9,924 nt of DNA from Promethearchaeota archaeon (GTDB lineage: Archaea; Asgardarchaeota; Lokiarchaeia; Sigynarchaeales; SOKP01). The DNA lies in contig WJKD01000909.1 of NCBI GenBank assembly GCA_014729315.1, forward strand, positions 1 to 9,924, written 5' to 3'. Both the position numbers and the translations under genes were made by a program. Each line of letters begins with the position of its first letter. Positions within the stretch are counted from its first letter, which is position 1. Shown in pieces: positions 6-8,657 of the stretch. The notes under the pieces were generated by a model, which saw only the letters and a program-made list of their open reading frames with translations, did no database searches and had not been told where the DNA came from.

Positions 6-1178
6 ATGTCTACAAATCGTATTTTTTGTAAATTCGGATTAATTGGAGAGAATTTAGACCTAAAAAAAAATATTTCCTTAAAGATACATGAAGATGGCGT
101 AATTAGTGAATTATCCTACGAAGATTTGGAAAATAATAAAAACTTTCAAGGGAATGGAGATAATCATTTATTAATTCCGGGTCTTATTAATTCTCACATT
201 CATATTGGAGATAGTTTCGCCAAGGAGAGAGGATTTAATAAAAATCTAATTGATGTGGTTGCACCTCCAAATGGGTTAAAGCATCAACTATTAAAAAAAA
301 CGGAAAAAGAAATTATTTTCAAGGGTATTATTAATTCAGCTCGAGAAATGATTTCTAACGGGATAACTTGTTTTGTTGATTTTAGAGAAGGGGGCTTAGA
401 AGGTGTTCAAATTATCAACGAAGCTATGGAAGGTGAACCTATAAGATCTGTTAAAATGGGACGATTTAGGGAAGAGGGTGAAATTAAGTCTATTTTTAAA
501 AATGCCGACGGGCTAGGTTTGTCAAGTTATAGAAATCTTTCTCCTGACGAGAAAGAATGCATAAGAACATTAAAATCTAGTAAAAACAAACTGGTTGCAT
601 GTCACGATGCAGAAGTAAAAAAAGATATAAATTTATTCAAAGAAATAATTAGCGATAATCTGGTGGATATCATAGTTCACGGAACACAGTATACGAAAAA
701 AGAGTTAAATCTCCTAAAAGAAAATAATATCTCGCTCGTTCTATGTCCTAGAAGCAACGGATATTTTGGCGTTGGTTTTCCACCAATACTAGATGTCGTC
801 GAATTCGATATTTTAACTGCTTTAGGAACGGATAATATAATGTCAATCAATCCCGATCTTTTTGAGGAAATGAGATATTTATATTTAATCGCTAGAGTTC
901 TGAGCAAAAAGTCGAATAAAAGTCCGATATCCGCAAAAGATTTATTAAAAATGACTACAATTAACGCAGCAAAAATATTAAAATTACAATCTTCGATCGG
1001 TTCAATATCTTTAAACAAGTACGCAGACTTTTTCATCATAAATTTGGATGATTTAAATTATTATAATAATCAAATCACTACAGATATTATATTTCCCCTC
1101 ATTGTGCAGAGAACTAAACCAGAAAACATAAAAAAAGTATTTATCGGAGGTAAAAATGTCTTTGAACGAAAGAAATAA
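6..1178 (+). CDS. Amidohydrolase-superfamily protein, probable deaminase (candidate archaeal riboflavin/F0-pathway deaminase)
   Basis: A 390-residue metal-dependent hydrolase related to cytosine deaminase, guanine deaminase and SsnA/MtaD-type proteins. Visible in order: a short N-terminal beta part, then PGLINSHIHIGD with metal ligands H64 and H66, then CHDAEV with H200 and E203 (the H-x-x-E pair of the aminohydrolase branch), then IIVHGT with H225, then CPRSNGYFG near 247-254, and LGTDN with metal ligand D276. The C-terminal part (about 305-390) returns to the small beta domain typical of the family. An in-frame TAG sits directly before the ATG, so this start is the longest possible. Its ribosome binding site lies outside the window. 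It overlaps the downstream reductase gene by 23 bases, implying co-expression with riboflavin/F0 synthesis. I infer, without proof, that it deaminates the diaminopyrimidine product of the reductase. The main alternative is 5'-deoxyadenosine deamination (DadD-like), removing the by-product of the two radical SAM enzymes. The fold is confident; the substrate is not. Confidence 0.85.
   Translation: MSTNRIFCKFGLIGENLDLKKNISLKIHEDGVISELSYEDLENNKNFQGNGDNHLLIPGLINSHIHIGDSFAKERGFNKNLIDVVAPPNGLKHQLLKKTEKEIIFKGIINSAREMISNGITCFVDFREGGLEGVQIINEAMEGEPIRSVKMGRFREEGEIKSIFKNADGLGLSSYRNLSPDEKECIRTLKSSKNKLVACHDAEVKKDINLFKEIISDNLVDIIVHGTQYTKKELNLLKENNISLVLCPRSNGYFGVGFPPILDVVEFDILTALGTDNIMSINPDLFEEMRYLYLIARVLSKKSNKSPISAKDLLKMTTINAAKILKLQSSIGSISLNKYADFFIINLDDLNYYNNQITTDIIFPLIVQRTKPENIKKVFIGGKNVFERKK
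1146..1151 (+). promoter_or_regulatory. Shine-Dalgarno site for the reductase gene
   Basis: GGAGGT lies five bases before the ATG at 1156, inside the last codons of the amidohydrolase gene. It is the clearest ribosome binding site in the window. It supports both this start and translation of the second gene from a polycistronic message. Confidence 0.75.
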
Positions 1179-1845
1179 GCAATCCTCACATAGACCAATC
1201 GTAATTTTAAGCGCTGCTATGACAATGGACGGTAAGATTGCTTCATTTACAGGTGATCCAGAACTCTCTGACGAAGCTGATTGGCGAGAAGTGCATAAAC
1301 TTCGAACGGAAGTAGACGCGATAATGGTAGGAAAAGGTACGATTCTTAAGGATGATCCTAAATTACACATTAAATATTATGAGCATAATGGATATTATAG
1401 AATAATCGCAGATAGCAATCTATCCATACCTTTTAATTCGCAAATTATTACATATGAGCCAGAATTATATCCTACGATATTTTGCTGCTCTAAAAATGTG
1501 GCTAATGATAGGATTAATCAGTTCAGAAGCAAAAAGATTAAAGTAATCAAATCTGGAAAGGGAAAGAGAGTAGACTTAGAGATCTTACTTCCGAAATTAT
1601 ATGAGTTAGGAATTAGAAAAATTCTATTAGAAGGAGGAGGGACCCTCAATTGGAGTTTTCTGAAAAGTGACCTTATCGACGAGCTCAGATTAACGATTGC
1701 TCCGTGGCTTGTGGGTGGCAAAAACGCTACAACTCTCATTGAGGGTAAGGGATTTGATAAAATGGCGCAAGCTCCAAGATATAGATTGAAAGAGGTCAAA
1801 CATAGGAATAATTATGTAATATTATATTATAAAAGAGGACCCTAA
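1156..1845 (+). CDS. arfC: 2,5-diamino-6-(ribosylamino)-4(3H)-pyrimidinone 5'-phosphate reductase (archaeal ArfC / RibD C-terminal type)
   Basis: This cytosolic NAD(P)H-dependent enzyme reduces the ribose of the diaminopyrimidine intermediate to ribityl, an early step common to riboflavin and deazaflavin F0 synthesis. The 229-residue protein is one RibD C-terminal (dihydrofolate reductase-like) domain. It shows SAAMTMDGKIA at 19-29, VGKGTILKDDP at 58-68, the glycine-rich LLEGGGTLN at 157-165 and APWLVGGKNA at 182-191. It has no N-terminal cytidine-deaminase-like domain, unlike bacterial RibD, as expected for the archaeal stand-alone form. The ATG is supported by GGAGGT five bases upstream. 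Its start overlaps the amidohydrolase by 23 bases, and its TAA shares one base with the ATG of cofG. The product, once deaminated and dephosphorylated, is the substrate of CofH, so the order of genes follows the pathway. The family call is strong. Confidence 0.93.
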   Translation: MSLNERNKQSSHRPIVILSAAMTMDGKIASFTGDPELSDEADWREVHKLRTEVDAIMVGKGTILKDDPKLHIKYYEHNGYYRIIADSNLSIPFNSQIITYEPELYPTIFCCSKNVANDRINQFRSKKIKVIKSGKGKRVDLEILLPKLYELGIRKILLEGGGTLNWSFLKSDLIDELRLTIAPWLVGGKNATTLIEGKGFDKMAQAPRYRLKEVKHRNNYVILYYKRGP

Positions 1846-2957
1846 TGGAAGAGATTAATTACAATTACTTCAAAGGGCTGGATTTAAGAACAATTAAAAA
1901 GGTTGTAAAGAAGATAAAATATGATCTTCCAAAGAGGGAACGAGAGACGATCACTTACTCTAAAAATTTCACGCTCTCGTTAAGTAATTATTGTGTAAAC
2001 GATTGCAGTTATTGTTATTTCAACTATAAACTCCCTAAAACCGAGAATAATAAGAACACCATTTTACTAGAGGATTTTCAGATTGAAAAATTAATTCAAG
2101 AAGCAGTTCGTTATAATTGTAAAGAAGCTTTAATTTTATCCGGAGAACATCCCGAATGTATTTCTGAAGTTCAAAATAAATTAATCGCAAATAATTATAA
2201 AAGCTACGTTGAATACGTAAAATCCGTATGCATTAAAGTATTAAAGTCTAACATCCTTCCTCATACAAACATTGGTTTACTCAGTTTTGAGCAATTAAAT
2301 GAGCTTAAAAAAAACAATGCGAGCATGGGTTTGATGCTCGAAAGCACAAACATGAATCTCTGCGAAATAGGAGGAGTTCACGAACTCTCTCCTGGAAAAG
2401 AACCCAAGAAGAGAATTAAATTCATAGAAAATGCAGGTAAATTGCACATTCCCTTTACTACGGGCTTACTGTTAGGTATTGGCGAGAACTTGGAAAATAG
2501 AATACACGATTTGCATTTAATTAAAAGTATACATCAAAAATACGGACATATCCAAGAAGTTATTATTCAAAACTTTGTTCAAAAGGAAGCTATTCGTTAT
2601 AGACCTAAAAAAGTCCTCTCTATAAAAGAGATCCTAAAAACCGTAGGCCTTGCCAAAATAATCTTCGGTAACGAAATTTCTATTCAAGTACCTCCTAATT
2701 TAATAACTGGATACGAAAGAGAGTTTATCCATATGGGAATTGACGATTTTGGAGGTATTTCTCCACTCACTTTAGATTATGTGAATCCAGAGAGCAAATG
2801 GCCACAAATAAAAAAATTGGAAAGCATATGCAAAAATAATGGATACATACTAAAAGAGAGATTACCGATATATCCTAAATACATCCGAAAACCAGAATTT
2901 TGTTCAGAAACTATTAAAAAAACGATTAATAATATTAATTTAGATGCTTATAACTGA
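1845..2957 (+). CDS. cofG: 7,8-didemethyl-8-hydroxy-5-deazariboflavin (F0) synthase subunit CofG, radical SAM
   Basis: CofG performs the second radical step of F0 synthesis, turning the CofH adduct of tyrosine and 5-amino-6-ribitylaminouracil into the deazaflavin ring. The 370-residue protein carries the radical SAM cluster motif C-x3-C-x2-C at C50, C54 and C57, preceded by the family's TYSKNFTLSLSNYC region. Further CofG hallmarks are KEALILSGEHPE (about 94-105), LPHTNIGLLS, ASMGLMLES, the HELSPGKEPKKR segment, IPFTTGLLLGIGE, YGHIQEVIIQNF, VPPNLITG and DDFGGISPLTLDYVNPE. These run in the usual order over the normal family length. The ATG overlaps the TAA of the reductase by one base (TAATG), with GAGG at 1835-1838 as ribosome binding site. 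The gene overlaps cofH by 14 bases. Menaquinone-pathway relatives (MqnC/MqnE) were considered, but the motifs and the cofH neighbour favour CofG. Confidence 0.95.
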   Translation: MEEINYNYFKGLDLRTIKKVVKKIKYDLPKRERETITYSKNFTLSLSNYCVNDCSYCYFNYKLPKTENNKNTILLEDFQIEKLIQEAVRYNCKEALILSGEHPECISEVQNKLIANNYKSYVEYVKSVCIKVLKSNILPHTNIGLLSFEQLNELKKNNASMGLMLESTNMNLCEIGGVHELSPGKEPKKRIKFIENAGKLHIPFTTGLLLGIGENLENRIHDLHLIKSIHQKYGHIQEVIIQNFVQKEAIRYRPKKVLSIKEILKTVGLAKIIFGNEISIQVPPNLITGYEREFIHMGIDDFGGISPLTLDYVNPESKWPQIKKLESICKNNGYILKERLPIYPKYIRKPEFCSETIKKTINNINLDAYN

Positions 2958-4074
2958 TTTGTTTGATCAAATAAAACCAGATATCAGAAAAATTCTTCAA
3001 AAATCCCTTGATTCTGAGGATATTAATGAAAACGAAGCTCTAAGCTTGTTAAGAGTCACAGGAAAGGAATTTTTTGCTTTACAATATGTTGCAAACAAAT
3101 TGTGTCTTGAAAGAAAGAAAAATGTAGTAACCTTTGTAGTCAATCGAAATATTAATTTCACAAATATTTGCAACCAAAGATGTAAATTCTGCTCCTTTAG
3201 CGTACCAAATAATGCTGACGACGCGTTCTTATTGAGTCTCAATGAGATAAGAGAGAAAACCATTGAAGCAAGTGAAAGCGGATGTACAGAATTATGTATA
3301 CAAGGAGGAATTAACCCAGATTTAGACTTTGATTATTATCTTCAGATACTAAAAACGGTGAAAAATGTAGAGCCAACTCTCCATATTCACGCGTTCTCCC
3401 CGCAAGAGATCTTTAGAATTGCCTCCCTAAAGGGGGACACACTTAAAAATACATTAAGAGAGTTAAAGAACGCAGGATTAAATTCGATTCCGGGAACGGC
3501 TGCGGAAATCCTTTCTGATGATATTAGAAAAATTATCTGTCCTAATAAAGTTCCTACTTCAAAATGGATTGAAATTATAAAAACAGCACATGAATTAAAA
3601 ATCCCGACGACATCAACTATTATGTATGGACATGTAGAAGATTTAAAGCATAGAGTTGAGCATTTGAAAGTTATAAGAGACATTCAGAAAGAAACTAACG
3701 GTTTTACTGAATTCGTTCCCCTTCCTTTTGTCAAAGAAAACCCGATCTTGTCGAGATTAAAAGACTTTCCACTTAAATTGACATCAGGAATCGATGATTT
3801 AAAGCTTTTTTGCGTCGCTAGAATATACTTCAACGATTACATTGACAACATCCAATGTTCGTGGGTGAAGCTTGGACCAAAATTCGCCCAAGTTTCGTTA
3901 AATTACGGTGTTAACGACTTTTCTGGGACTTTAATGGAGGAAAATATCTCGAGAAGTGCTGGCGCTGAATTTGGGCAAATTCTACACGAAGACGAAATCA
4001 TTTCAATAATTAAATCAGCGGGAAAAATTCCCGCTCAAAGGGATACGATTTATAATATCGTCAAACGCTATTAA
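2944..4074 (+). CDS. cofH: 5-amino-6-(D-ribitylamino)uracil--L-tyrosine 4-hydroxyphenyl transferase CofH, radical SAM
   Basis: CofH joins the hydroxybenzyl group of tyrosine to 5-amino-6-ribitylaminouracil, the first committed step to F0 and coenzyme F420. The 376-residue protein has a helical N-terminal part, then the radical SAM motif C-x3-C-x2-C at C76, C80 and C83 within NFTNICNQRCKFCSF. It continues with ELCIQGGINPDL (about 116-127), HIHAFSPQEI, NSIPGTAAEILSDDIR, TTSTIMYGHVE, FTEFVPLPFV, WVKLGPKFAQ and NDFSGTLMEENISRSAGA, all typical of CofH and in the expected order. Translation starts at the ATG inside the last codons of cofG (14-base overlap), so the two subunits are probably made in a coupled way. 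It is the last gene of the operon; a T-run follows 13 bases after the stop. The remaining F420 genes (cofC, cofD, cofE) are not in the window. Confidence 0.95.
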   Translation: MLITDLFDQIKPDIRKILQKSLDSEDINENEALSLLRVTGKEFFALQYVANKLCLERKKNVVTFVVNRNINFTNICNQRCKFCSFSVPNNADDAFLLSLNEIREKTIEASESGCTELCIQGGINPDLDFDYYLQILKTVKNVEPTLHIHAFSPQEIFRIASLKGDTLKNTLRELKNAGLNSIPGTAAEILSDDIRKIICPNKVPTSKWIEIIKTAHELKIPTTSTIMYGHVEDLKHRVEHLKVIRDIQKETNGFTEFVPLPFVKENPILSRLKDFPLKLTSGIDDLKLFCVARIYFNDYIDNIQCSWVKLGPKFAQVSLNYGVNDFSGTLMEENISRSAGAEFGQILHEDEIISIIKSAGKIPAQRDTIYNIVKRY

Positions 4075-4169: not shown

Positions 4170-4190
4170 CGAATAAAAGATTTGAGAAAT

Positions 4191-4484
4191 ATGACTATTA
4201 CTCTAATTGCCACAATTAAAGTGAAAGAAGGTAATATGGAAAAAGCTAAGGAAGTACTTAAAGAAATCGTGCCTAAGATAAAAGAACAAGAATCAGGTCT
4301 AATTGAATACCGCCCTCACACAGTAAAAGGCAAAAAGGAAAAGAACACAATAATATTTTATGAAAAATACAAAGATAAAGAAGCTTTACAAATTCATTCA
4401 GCAAATTTAGGGAAATCGCTCGCACCATTATTACCCTTATTAGAACCGGGAATGGATGTTAAAACATGCTTCGAAATTATTTAA
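4191..4484 (+). CDS. Antibiotic biosynthesis monooxygenase (ABM)-domain protein
   Basis: A 97-residue single-domain protein of the dimeric alpha/beta ferredoxin-like ABM family (YgiN-like). The pattern is clear. A first strand (MTITLIATIKVKEG) is followed by a helix with KAKEVLKEIVPKIKEQESGLIEY. Next comes a strand with NTIIFYEKYKDKEALQIHSAN containing the family's conserved histidine near residue 70, and a final region GMDVKTCFEII. Members include quinol monooxygenases and small oxidoreductases, but many are uncharacterised and the substrate cannot be read from sequence. I chose the ATG at 4191 over a TTG nine bases earlier because the ABM domain begins at the ATG and a TATA box sits at the distance expected for a leaderless message. 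The gene stands alone, downstream of cofH and convergent with the next gene, which it overlaps by 8 bases at the 3' ends. Its position does not by itself tie it to F420 metabolism. Confidence 0.8.
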   Translation: MTITLIATIKVKEGNMEKAKEVLKEIVPKIKEQESGLIEYRPHTVKGKKEKNTIIFYEKYKDKEALQIHSANLGKSLAPLLPLLEPGMDVKTCFEII

Positions 4485-5904
4485 ATTTTTTTTTATTAAT
4501 AGGATTATTTTCTGGATTCAAAATTTCTATAACTTTTAACTTTTTGCTTATTAAAATTAAGAATAATGTAATTCCAGCAAATAATGTAATAAAGATAATC
4601 AATAAATAAAGCCATGTAAAATTCTTATTAATTTCTATTTTTTCTGGTTTGAAATCAACGATTCCGTCGTGAATCCGAATGCTATCAATTTCGTCATCCT
4701 CAAAATTTCTGATAATCCGCAATAAAGCGGATATTGCGTGTTGCGTATAATCAATTCGTATAAGATAAGCGTCCTCAACTTCGAAACCCCTATGAAAACC
4801 TCCAAATCCTCTGTTAGGACACGTCAACTGAGATTCTTTTCGGTATTGGAGAGTCAAAACCCATTCTACGCCGGCTTTTAGACAATTGTGGTACTTTTGT
4901 GCTCTTTCCGAGTCTAAAACATCTTTGGCAACTCTTAGCGCGTCTCCAATTCCTTCTAAATAGACTCCCGTGTTTACCGTGGGACCTAAAATGTAACCGT
5001 ACAGAGGATTGCCCAATTCGTCGATTTCTTCTACTAAATATTGACGATCTATTTGAATATCCGTCATTTCAAAACAGAAATCCAAGTAGATCTGATCCCC
5101 CGTTAACTCGTACCATTTAGCGCATCCTGAAGATGCCCAAGGAATAAATGCGGAATTATCGTATTCATAATCGCTAGAATAGTAGAAATCAATCGCATCC
5201 TCAACAGACCTACGATATGCTCTGTCTTCGTGAACTTTATAAGCTAAAGCGAGAGCAAACAAAGCTTCGCTGGAATAATATAATTTTTCTTCCTTACTGC
5301 CATAGATTCCGGCATAAGCGCCGTCAGATCTTTGTTGAGAAACGATAAAGTTGGCATATTTTTCCACATAAATGTTATAATGAGTGCTTTTTGTAGCTTC
5401 CCAATATCTAACCATCGCTAAGATAGTCAGCGCGACTGTTCCGACTTTCATTTTAGAATTATAGTAGATTGCCCAGTCATCGTAATTGATCATGTAAGTG
5501 TGAGCGGAGAGATAATCTAACCCAGCTAAACCTGCTGCTAAATATTTTTCATTCCCCAGTTCGAGATACAAGTCCATTAAGGCGTATGTTGCTCCAGCGT
5601 GTCTTACAATATTGTATTCCGTTTCGTCGTATTCATTATCTTCTGCATCGTAAATATATCTATATTTACCATTTATATGTTGAGAATAAACCAAATTATC
5701 TCCGGCATAGAGAGCACATTCTTCAATTCGATTTTCAGCATCGCCATTTTTATAATATTTGGGTGCTTCCCAGTCTGGATCGCATTCTTCGATATTAATA
5801 AAGAGATTGATATTAGTAATGGTGTAAAATCTCATCATAACTACAGCTAAAATAATTAAAAACACGACTATAGATGATGTGATGATGTCTACGACTTTGT
5901 GCAT
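4477..5904 (-). CDS. Membrane-anchored protein with a large extracytoplasmic alpha/alpha-toroid domain (function unknown)
   Basis: I do not recognise a named family with confidence. From the ATG at 5904 the protein has 475 residues. A hydrophobic segment lies near 9-24 and a second near 430-453, followed by a lysine-rich tail, so about 400 residues should face outside. That domain contains repeated helical-hairpin signatures: AGATYALMDLYLELGNEKYL (104-123), VGTVALTILAMVRYWEA, YYSSEALFALALAYKVHEDRAY, IPWASSGCAKWYELTGDQIYL, YLEGIGDALRVAKDVLDSERA and IDYTQHAISALLRI. Six such units, plus glycine/aromatic turns (SQQRSDGAYAGIYG, NRGFGGFHRGF), suggest an (alpha/alpha)6 barrel. That fold is shared by glycoside hydrolases, sugar epimerases, polysaccharide lyases and terpene cyclases. 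A longer form from TTG at 5961 would add 19 polar/hydrophobic residues; the ATG is preferred because a TATA-like element lies about 34 bases before it. Activity on surface glycans is only an inference. The gene lies downstream of the dihydropteroate synthase-related gene but probably has its own promoter. Confidence 0.75.
   Translation of the reverse strand: MHKVVDIITSSIVVFLIILAVVMMRFYTITNINLFINIEECDPDWEAPKYYKNGDAENRIEECALYAGDNLVYSQHINGKYRYIYDAEDNEYDETEYNIVRHAGATYALMDLYLELGNEKYLAAGLAGLDYLSAHTYMINYDDWAIYYNSKMKVGTVALTILAMVRYWEATKSTHYNIYVEKYANFIVSQQRSDGAYAGIYGSKEEKLYYSSEALFALALAYKVHEDRAYRRSVEDAIDFYYSSDYEYDNSAFIPWASSGCAKWYELTGDQIYLDFCFEMTDIQIDRQYLVEEIDELGNPLYGYILGPTVNTGVYLEGIGDALRVAKDVLDSERAQKYHNCLKAGVEWVLTLQYRKESQLTCPNRGFGGFHRGFEVEDAYLIRIDYTQHAISALLRIIRNFEDDEIDSIRIHDGIVDFKPEKIEINKNFTWLYLLIIFITLFAGITLFLILISKKLKVIEILNPENNPINKKKFK
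4486..4494 (+). terminator. T9 tract, probable terminator of the ABM gene
   Basis: Nine consecutive T begin one base after the ABM gene stop codon. On the other strand they encode the lysine-rich end (NKKKFK) of the convergent membrane protein. The tract thus appears to serve as both terminator and coding sequence. Confidence 0.5.
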
Positions 5905-5931
5905 ATATTCAACGGATTTATAGATTTTGTG

Positions 5932-5944
5932 AATATAATATATG
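5932..5944 (-). promoter_or_regulatory. TATA-like element for the toroid membrane-protein gene
   Basis: On the minus strand, CATATATATTATATT is centred about 34 bases before the ATG at 5904, giving a predicted leader of roughly 8 bases. It lies in the 96-base gap after the dihydropteroate synthase-related gene. The region is AT-rich, so chance resemblance is possible. Confidence 0.35.
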
Positions 5945-6000
5945 AAAATTATTTGATTCAATCATAAATATAGTTTATGCGTGAGATTAAAACGCATGAA

Positions 6001-7572
6001 TTATTCGTCTTGGATATAAGGTTTTCCAGTTTTTAAACAATATTCAGCTTTAGACAACTCTCTTCCGAGATAGTTAATGTGATACGCGTTATTAGTAAGA
6101 TTTAAATTTAGTATTCTTTTGCTGATTGCTTCAGCATTATTTCCAATTAAAGTCTTTCTCAATATATCTTTGTTTGAATAGAACATTGCTATAATTTCTT
6201 TAGCGTAATGGTCCACATAGAGTTTAAAATAGCCGTTTTTATCTGGTTCATATTCAGGATTATATTCACTAATGTGTACTGCCTCTTTCTTATCTATTTT
6301 AGGACATTCTTGACGTGTTTTTCCTTTTGCTTTAAAAAGCTGGATACCTTGATTAATAGGTGGTGTTTTTTTCATTTTAGCAATGTAATTTAGCTTAATT
6401 GCTTCCTTCAATTCACTGACACCATTCATAAGTTTTGTACTATGCTCAACGGTGAACACAACTCCCATATCCAATTCCAGAGCTATACTCGCTAACAGTC
6501 CATTAACGCCCACTGAATCTACATCCATCAATTCCACAACATTTGATATCCCAAAAAATAATGGAATTTCTAATGCAGCAAATTCCTCTTTTAATACGCA
6601 TTTTTTATAATAAGAGTAGGCATCTAAAGAATTGCATATACCAGGAGAGATAGGAGTCTCTAATAAGGGATCGGCTATTAATTTCCGAAAACCAATATCG
6701 CGCAAGGTTTTAGTTAATTCGAATAAGTTTTTTACTCTAGTTTTTGGATCCTTCGGAAAGTATCCTTCCTTTACTTTAGTAGGTAAAATAACGATTGGAA
6801 TGTCCTTGGGAATAAAAATTAAATCCTTGTAATTTTCTAAATCAAAACTCAATAACATGTCAATTCCTTCGTCAACTGCAGCTAGAATCTCGCTTTTTTC
6901 CATCGAATCGATGCTTAATAAACTATTAGTGTTATTTTTAAGCAGAGAAATAACTTCTCTTACCCGATCTGGGTCTGGATTGTTAGATACACACCCTATA
7001 TCGATAATGTCAGCACCAGAATTGACATAATGCTGAGCCTTCTTAACGATACTTTGATCTTTCTTGGTTGTACAATTTACAATCTCTGCAATGATGGGGG
7101 GAGGCAGATTCTTGCCGATTATCACATCTGATTTACGCTCATTTACGAAAAAGGTTGATCCTCCTATCTCAGTTCTACTCGAAGTTAATTGTTCTTGAAG
7201 GAGGTTTTTAAATATTTTCTCTCCAGAGATTTTGAACACTTTATTCGCTGAAATGAGATTAGAAAGAGTAATCTTATCCAAATTTTTTAGAATCGTTGGT
7301 AAATCTGACGCGAATTCGGGGCCCTTCCTAATTTTCAAATTGAATTCAGCTTCTAACTTGCTCGTATCCCATTGTACGAACCCAGGTAAAAGAACGAGAT
7401 CGATATCTTCTTTAGCAATCGATCCTAAGGCAGACCTAACCATAGCGGGAGTAATAAAAGCCGAAACCGCAACGGGCATCTTGAGTATTTCAAACACAAA
7501 TCCCTTTATTTCTTGAACTATTTTGTTTAAGATTGGATAACTCTCTTGCCCGGTTAGTATTAAAATTTTAAT
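6001..7572 (-). CDS. Dihydropteroate synthase-related protein (TIGR00284-type) with C-terminal DUF4346-like domain
   Basis: An archaeal protein with a central TIM-barrel region resembling the N-terminal half of dihydropteroate synthase. It is presumed to act in methanopterin-type or other pterin synthesis, though no reaction is established for this group. Counting from ATT at 7572 it has 523 residues. The N-terminal part holds IKILILTG...PVAVSAFITP. The barrel has PPPIIAEIVNCTT (about 157-169), GADIIDIGCVSNNPDPDRV (186-204), LLSIDSMEKSEILAAVDEGID (from 218) and KLIADPLLETPISPG (297-311). The tail (about 447-523) matches the small domain found fused in this family. The obvious GTG at 7497 would delete the conserved N-terminal strand and the TG motif. 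The reading frame stays open for 25 more codons to a TAA at 7573-7575 with no ATG, GTG or TTG, so an ATT start is proposed. It lies 5 bases after the DUF1464 stop, so the two genes are almost certainly co-transcribed. Confidence 0.85.
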   Translation of the reverse strand: MKILILTGQESYPILNKIVQEIKGFVFEILKMPVAVSAFITPAMVRSALGSIAKEDIDLVLLPGFVQWDTSKLEAEFNLKIRKGPEFASDLPTILKNLDKITLSNLISANKVFKISGEKIFKNLLQEQLTSSRTEIGGSTFFVNERKSDVIIGKNLPPPIIAEIVNCTTKKDQSIVKKAQHYVNSGADIIDIGCVSNNPDPDRVREVISLLKNNTNSLLSIDSMEKSEILAAVDEGIDMLLSFDLENYKDLIFIPKDIPIVILPTKVKEGYFPKDPKTRVKNLFELTKTLRDIGFRKLIADPLLETPISPGICNSLDAYSYYKKCVLKEEFAALEIPLFFGISNVVELMDVDSVGVNGLLASIALELDMGVVFTVEHSTKLMNGVSELKEAIKLNYIAKMKKTPPINQGIQLFKAKGKTRQECPKIDKKEAVHISEYNPEYEPDKNGYFKLYVDHYAKEIIAMFYSNKDILRKTLIGNNAEAISKRILNLNLTNNAYHINYLGRELSKAEYCLKTGKPYIQDE

Positions 7573-7577
7573 TTAAA

Positions 7578-8657
7578 TCACTGTAGATTTTTTTTATCAA
7601 ACGGAATATAGATATCGTCCAAAATGGAACCAGAAGCTTCTTTAATTTTTAAATTACTAATAATAGGCTCGTAGTGCCCCTCCATTAGGCCGTTTGCTAT
7701 ATAAGCAGCACCTTGGGCAGCCCTCTTTGCGATTTGAGAATAATTTTTCATTAGCCGCGTGGAAGAGAGACGGCTTAATTTATCAATCATCATTTCTCTA
7801 ATGAATTTTATATTAGCACCTCTTCCCGCTAACAAAATTTCTTTTATTTTGTTCCTATTTGAATATGAAGAAGCAATCCCAAATACGGCTTTTTTTACGC
7901 TGGACATATACGCATCTAAGGCGGTTTTTGATTGTTTATCTTTTTCTGCTAATAATGTGATTTCCTTTATACTTAAATCCGAATATCCGGAAATAAACGC
8001 AACACCACCTTTATAGATGTTTTTCTTCTTTACATTTTTAATTAAATACGCTAATTCTCCATCGAGGCTCCCGCATGCTCTAAAACCCATGATGTTTGAA
8101 CCTCCAATTCCATCTATAATCTGGCCGTTTTCGACAGCTAATACGGCGGTGAACCCGTAACCAATTTCGACCATTATAAAGTTAGTTCTCTCGGGACCCA
8201 CATCATATTGTTCCATCTGATCTTTAATTCCGGTTACGGCGGTACATAATTTATCTGCGGTTCCCATGTCAATCTTATTAATCTTACGATATCTAGGAAC
8301 AGTAGGCAAGTGTTTAATTCCTGGTATAATGACGCCTGACAACTTTTCTTTCTTGAATAATCTCAGCACTTTTCCTAGGCCAATAAGTTTGCTTTTTTCT
8401 TCTTTTTCAAATTTTAATAATGTGTAAAAAATATCTTCTTCAGTTAAGTCTTCCACTTTTTTTAAAGGAAGTCCAAATCCGCTCGGAGCGGTTATTAAGT
8501 CAACATTTTTTACGGATTTAATAATATCTATGGCTTTTGATGAATCTTGGGTTATTAATTTGGAGGGGATGGAAGTATCTAAAATTACCTTATTATCATC
8601 TAATCCATAAAAATCCCACGACCCACTTCCAGGATCTATTCCTATTACTCTACTCAA
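7578..8657 (-). CDS. DUF1464 family protein (ASKHA-fold, predicted sugar/acid kinase-like)
   Basis: A 359-residue member of the archaeal DUF1464 group (COG2441, annotated only as a predicted butyrate kinase). It has the nucleotide-binding layout of the acetate kinase/sugar kinase/Hsp70/actin superfamily. A phosphate-1 loop is VIGIDPGSGSWDFYGLD (4-20), a second glycine-rich loop is MVEIGYGFTAVLAVENGQ (162-179) followed by DGIGGSN, and an adenosine-type loop is ILLAGRGAN (274-282). The butyrate kinase label is not supported by anything here, as no other fatty-acid gene is near. The start is TTG at 8657, since an in-frame TGA lies three codons upstream and the phosphate-1 strand begins immediately. 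A good TATA box 32 bases upstream fits a very short leader. It is the first gene of a unit with the dihydropteroate synthase-related gene, suggesting a shared pterin or C1-carrier role. That link is inferred from context. Confidence 0.82.
   Translation of the reverse strand: MSRVIGIDPGSGSWDFYGLDDNKVILDTSIPSKLITQDSSKAIDIIKSVKNVDLITAPSGFGLPLKKVEDLTEEDIFYTLLKFEKEEKSKLIGLGKVLRLFKKEKLSGVIIPGIKHLPTVPRYRKINKIDMGTADKLCTAVTGIKDQMEQYDVGPERTNFIMVEIGYGFTAVLAVENGQIIDGIGGSNIMGFRACGSLDGELAYLIKNVKKKNIYKGGVAFISGYSDLSIKEITLLAEKDKQSKTALDAYMSSVKKAVFGIASSYSNRNKIKEILLAGRGANIKFIREMMIDKLSRLSSTRLMKNYSQIAKRAAQGAAYIANGLMEGHYEPIISNLKIKEASGSILDDIYIPFDKKNLQ

Follow-up and report, generated by a model that had tools for sequence, protein, structure and literature searches.

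The window analysed here, a stretch of 9,924 nucleotides (nt) of Promethearchaeota archaeon DNA (contig WJKD01000909.1), opens with the gene for an amidohydrolase, here termed AmH, which very probably serves in archaea as the deaminase of the precursor shared by riboflavin and F420 synthesis; its activity on the diaminopyrimidine is what we infer. In archaea whose reductase stands alone, synthesis of riboflavin or F420 requires that the deamination be carried out as a step of its own. A sequence-only reading of the window had put AmH forward as a candidate for this step, and the proposal is supported by the family-wide linkage of AmH to the reductase gene arfC, by the co-occurrence of the two genes, by the absence of the family beside fused RibD and by a conserved catalytic set. 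In function AmH would correspond to the RibD deaminase domain without being homologous to it. That N-terminal domain of the bacterial enzyme acts on the same amino group as is proposed for AmH and is also coupled to a reductase, but it has a cytidine-deaminase-type fold (PF00383 in RibD-like domains) and acts before reduction. The gene pair poses a testable question, in that the reductase partner points to the likely substrate of AmH, and an answer could correct the name "chlorohydrolase" now attached to the family.

The operon and its amidohydrolase

Four genes on the + strand form one tight operon at the start of the window: AmH, an ArfC-type reductase, cofG and cofH, whose open reading frames (ORFs) overlap successively by 23, 1 and 14 nt. 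AmH (6..1178, 390 amino acids [aa]) matches Pfam Amidohydro_1 (E 4e-41) and shares 23 nt (1156..1178) with the reductase gene (1156..1845, 229 aa). The reductase matches Pfam RibD_C (E 1e-45), scores 185 bits against a cut-off of 150 on the NCBIfam model of the RibD C-terminal domain, and lies just below the cut-off of rib_reduct_arch (TIGR01508; 184.7 versus 186.45 bits). CofG (1845..2957, 370 aa) matches Pfam Radical_SAM and NCBIfam NF004884 (392 bits), and CofH (2944..4074, 376 aa) matches Radical_SAM, CofH_C and TIGR03551 (460 bits), both above the NCBIfam cut-offs. ORF coordinates and the Pfam and NCBIfam matches agree with the earlier description of AmH as the head of an operon that ends in CofG/CofH and overlaps the reductase gene by 23 nt. 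The same four-gene order occurs in two named Lokiarchaeota metagenome-assembled genomes (MAGs; L001 and L002), with overlaps of 20 nt between the first two genes, and of 31 short loci (flanks of at most 1.5 kb) surrounding the family members in G001, G002 and related genomes, 30 contain arfC; the arrangement is therefore not due to chance. Among the best 120 matches, the nearest named relatives of AmH are from Asgard archaea (Promethearchaeota, Loki-, Thor- and Hermodarchaeota), with 52-59% identity.

AmH belongs to the PRK07213/MJ0699 family, as judged by the best model by far and by its position in a tree. Its best NCBIfam match is NF005552/PRK07213 (271 bits, below the cut-off of 294), and the runner-up model reaches 118 bits. 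NF005552 carries the name "chlorohydrolase" as an equivalog, which probably misleads the annotation of archaeal genomes. At E<=1e-50, and among 14 named controls, this model matches Methanocaldococcus jannaschii, Haloferax volcanii, Sulfolobus acidocaldarius and Methanosarcina acetivorans and none of ten bacteria. A maximum-likelihood tree of 54 rows, unrooted and with long branches for some rows, has a 100/100 split that separates a family side (the window protein, the M. jannaschii member and 42 others) from a DadD-type paralogue of M. jannaschii and nine further amidohydrolases. Seven of the 61 rows were left out of the tree: L006-L008 (558-574 aa), the duplicates L173 and L004, a close relative of L001 (L005) and a Treponema sequence (L003).

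An AlphaFold2 model of AmH has a mean predicted local distance difference test score (pLDDT) of 92.6, and its top fold matches are deaminases of adenosine, methylthioadenosine (MTA) and S-adenosylhomocysteine (SAH). With its HxH, HxxE, H and D set on the common fold, AmH is a COG0402-type aminohydrolase; the closest known systems include the MTA/SAH/5'-deoxyadenosine deaminases, guanine deaminase and the isocytosine deaminase Vcz. Pfam finds only Amidohydro_1/3 in AmH, and TIGR00326, whose N-terminal region (positions 1-130) models the RibD deaminase, is absent from the 25 best-scoring of 33 NCBIfam families; with no PF00383 among the Pfam matches and a different fold, homology of AmH to RibD was rated low.

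The residues that the sequence-only reading had singled out, H64, H66, H200, E203, H225 and D276, proved invariant both in an alignment of 26 distinct family members (one row of alignment A1 had been entered twice) and in a wider one of 43 family rows, which was compared with 10 outgroup rows after one short row was left out. H64 and H66 (195..203), H200 (within 603..614), H225 (678..680) and D276 (within 831..836) are each present in 10/10 outgroup rows, and E203 (also within 603..614) in 9/10. A second set is specific to the family: D69 (210..212), K92 in a PPxGLKH motif (279..281), E128 in a DFREGG motif (384..389 with R127) and N277 (831..836 with D276) are found in 43/43 family and 0/10 outgroup rows, R127 in 41/43 and 0/10, and R153 (462..464) in 43/43 and 1/10.

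As a putative metal-dependent aminohydrolase of the COG0402 type, AmH would strip the exocyclic 2-amino group from the ArfC product, 2,5-diamino-6-ribitylamino-4(3H)-pyrimidinone 5'-phosphate, giving 5-amino-6-ribitylaminouracil 5'-phosphate and ammonia. A separate phosphatase would then yield 5-amino-6-ribitylaminouracil, from which CofH (F420) and lumazine synthase (riboflavin) both start. By analogy with the superfamily, H64, H66, H200 and D276 are predicted to bind a metal ion, by which water is activated to attack C2, with E203 as the proton shuttle and H225 stabilising the reaction intermediate. Binding of the ribityl-phosphate and of the pyrimidine would fall to the family-specific K92, R127/E128, R153 and N277, K92 being a candidate contact of the phosphate or ribityl group.

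Linkage to arfC and to the riboflavin/F420 trunk

We surveyed 294 genomes related to G055, counting as strong holders those with a family match at E<=1e-50; there are 115. In 92 of these the AmH gene is followed immediately, on its own strand and after at most 300 nt, by a RibD_C reductase gene; the reductase is within 5 kb in 4 and elsewhere in 17, and was not found in 2. Reductase matches were counted to E 1.1e-17, and of the 175 genomes that match TIGR00326 at all, 35, some showing the deaminase region only, were left unclassed. On this basis a stand-alone reductase is present in at least 136 genomes, 113 with a strong family member and 16 with a weaker one. The 16 weaker members and a diverged member in G234 (L163) sit on the family side of the tree, which brings the family to 130 of 136. 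None of the four genomes with a fused, full-length RibD holds the family. Fisher's exact test on strong members gives p about 6e-55, for related genomes whose counts are not independent. The co-occurrence with arfC suggested at the outset as a check is thus borne out. Among Methanococcales, the AmH family gene is present in 33 of 36 genomes; of the other three, G305 shows part of a reductase where a contig ends, G320 none and G323 a full one.

The family is also linked to other genes of the riboflavin/F420 trunk. At locus L068 the order is ribB-ribC-ribH-arfA-AmH-arfC-creatininase, and similar clusters occur in L067, L072, L078 (without arfA) and L089; in L191 the AmH gene sits between ribC and ribH. 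In a panel of 30 hand-picked genomes, all 19 strong holders have CofH and 12 have lumazine synthase. The seven without a lumazine synthase match (G001, G002, G006, G010, G126, G195 and G212) would use the trunk for 7,8-didemethyl-8-hydroxy-5-deazariboflavin (FO). S. acidocaldarius is the reverse case, with the family and lumazine synthase and without a CofH match at E<=1e-40. AmH thus tracks the trunk from GTP to 5-amino-6-ribitylaminouracil and is therefore placed where deamination and dephosphorylation are the open steps; of the two, an aminohydrolase fits deamination.

G001, G002, G006 and G010 hold AmH, ArfC and CofH, and neither lumazine synthase nor GTP cyclohydrolase II or III was found in them. 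The operon might on these grounds represent an FO-only pathway in several Lokiarchaeota-type genomes, fed by an unrecognised GTP-opening enzyme, possibly the MptA encoded divergently beside the operon. We consider this rather unlikely: by Pfam, both cyclohydrolases are missing from 9 of the 19 panel holders (these four and G055, G126, G195, G256 and G290) and from the M. acetivorans control, so that the gap is wider than the operon type.

Several observations weigh against AmH as the trunk deaminase. The enzymes nearest to it in fold use adenosine derivatives as substrates, and some of the near fold matches are not deaminases at all (atrazine chlorohydrolases, imidazolonepropionases). In 17 of the 115 strong and 12 of the 16 weaker genomes, methanogen-like ones included, the AmH and reductase genes are widely separated or sit on separate contigs. 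G228 and G249 hold the AmH gene and no reductase by two models; conversely, G323 (0.9 Mb) has its reductase and no family match, and in G112, which has both a reductase and lumazine synthase, the one amidohydrolase is DadD-like. As for another deaminase in the host, which the earlier reading had named as an argument against it, the four fused-RibD genomes do not hold the family, although the holders G055 and G003 carry a RibD-deaminase-like domain, in long proteins with TPR or HATPase parts and no reductase part.

Seven genomes with a stand-alone reductase had seemed to lack the family: G234, in which the diverged member was then found, G142, G178, G182, G192, G226 and G112. Of the six that remain, G112 alone has lumazine synthase; in the other five neither lumazine synthase nor CofH was found, and they therefore have no visible need for the deamination. 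These five carry stand-alone RibD_C reductases (L174-L178), with GTP cyclohydrolase II in four. Among ten ORFs near arfC in G142, G192, G112 and G234, Pfam revealed no alternative deaminase, two of the ORFs having no family at all. The RibD-deaminase-like matches inspected in G055, G003, G138, G107 and G192 (two in G209 were left out) are cytidine-deaminase domains with no reductase part; three belong to long proteins. Such PF00383 domains lie at L203:1898- (TPR), L204:234-1721 (HATPase), L206:825-2321, L205:586-1641 and L179:3731-4465.

Reaction order and other possible activities

AmH belongs to the same superfamily as 5'-deoxyadenosine deaminase (DadD), its best fold matches are adenosine/MTA/SAH deaminases, and in the window it stands beside two radical-SAM genes, so that it could be imagined to clear the 5'-deoxyadenosine released by CofG and CofH. 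This is very unlikely. AmH scores 92.6 bits on PRK07228, against a cut-off of 522, and falls outside the DadD clade. M. jannaschii has a separate DadD-type paralogue (G298:C1:1517632-1518693; tree row L187:2462-3724), presumably MJ1541, across the 100/100 split. Moreover, the link to arfC holds without cofG or cofH in the stretches fetched for L067, L068, L070-L073, L078 and L089, and the S. acidocaldarius case described above has the family without a CofH match.

The order of the two reactions bears on a second alternative, in which AmH would deaminate the ribosyl compound before reduction, as in bacteria. The C2 chemistry would be the same and the AmH gene lies upstream of arfC; nevertheless the partner reductases make this order highly improbable. 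According to PMC3631187, a Lys of bacterial RibD/RibG (EcRibD 152, BsRibG 151) recognises the C2 oxygen left by deamination, whereas fungi have Thr and archaea Asn at this place. In our alignment the Lys, a few residues before a "DG" motif, is present in 4/4 fused RibD and in 0/28 reductases of family-holding genomes; the window reductase has Ser, and the partner reductases have Ser or Asn (Tyr in L089). The fused-RibD Lys aligns with residue 163 of PDB chain 2b3z (RibG), which would be residue 151 if the 373-residue chain carries a 12-residue tag. As a point on the other side, Lys is also absent from 6/6 reductases of genomes without the family, and so marks stand-alone reductases and not the family. 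Judged from these sequences, the reductase residue fits reduction first and deamination second, the order given for archaea in PMC3631187 and PMC10366380.

That AmH might be a deformylase (the ArfB function) or some other trunk hydrolase, as its hydrolase superfamily and the lack of a creatininase-family match in 3 of the 19 panel strong holders (G006, G195, G256) would allow, is hardly credible: such a protein is present in the other 16 and in the L068 cluster itself, even if the L068 protein scores weakly on the curated model of ArfB (29 versus 180 bits), and the HxH/HxxE/H/D set is one that AmH has in common with aminohydrolases.

MJ0699, earlier predictions and neighbouring genes

The M. 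jannaschii family member scores 589 bits on NF005552. In that genome (G298) it follows a Nop5-like gene, two small genes, fibrillarin and a HisB-like gene (Nop5 and HisB assigned by eye), and all 230/230 residues of the fibrillarin align with PDB 1fbn, "MJ fibrillarin homologue". We take this fibrillarin to be MJ0697, and the amidohydrolase two genes further to be MJ0699 (UniProt Q58110). It is not adjacent to arfC: the two genes lie 27 kb apart, at 624703-625827 and 596970-597611. M. jannaschii arfC is MJ0671 in PMC8305020, and the span of 28 genes from MJ0671 to MJ0699 fits the distance. MJ0699 and the window AmH share 34% identity, the same clade and the same invariant residues, and constitute one family.

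The claim that archaea have no accepted gene for the deamination needs modification. Table 6 of PMC8305020 lists MJ0699 and HVO_2483 as predicted riboflavin synthesis enzymes, citing Rodionova et al. (2017), and places them after arfC and ahead of the phosphatase gap, EC 3.1.3.104; this listing order suggests that the predicted step is deamination. The family is thus already in print, and what stands of the claim is that the portions of the open-licence literature searched yielded no experimental proof of an archaeal deaminase. Two brief mentions there differ: PMC3631187 gives RIB2 for fungi and archaea together, and PMC9478397 RibD for bacteria and archaea. H. volcanii has a family match at E<=1e-50, which may be HVO_2483. 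To the listing in PMC8305020 we add the counts for arfC and RibD, the genomes that would make FO only or riboflavin only, and the residue of the reductase; some of these may already be part of the argument of Rodionova et al.

In both Lokiarchaeota MAGs an mptA gene lies divergently upstream of the operon; in L001 (6916-7860) its product is MptA by TIGR00294 (268 bits, above cut-off), and a relative of this GTP cyclohydrolase gene is found inside 23 of the 31 loci. The window carries, at 6001-8657 on the - strand, genes for a dihydropteroate synthase (DHPS)-like protein (TIGR00284) and a DUF1464 protein, an order kept downstream of the operon in L001; the contig of L002 ends inside the DHPS-like gene. 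A pterin role for AmH, hinted at by these neighbours, was set aside because the arfC link holds where no mptA was found in the stretches fetched (L010-L013; L067, L068, L072). The next + strand gene after cofH, 107 nt on, encodes an ABM-domain protein (4182-4484). A 494-aa ORF on the - strand (4477-5961) has, by eye, a hydrophobic stretch near each end and a weak pectate-lyase match (E 2e-5).
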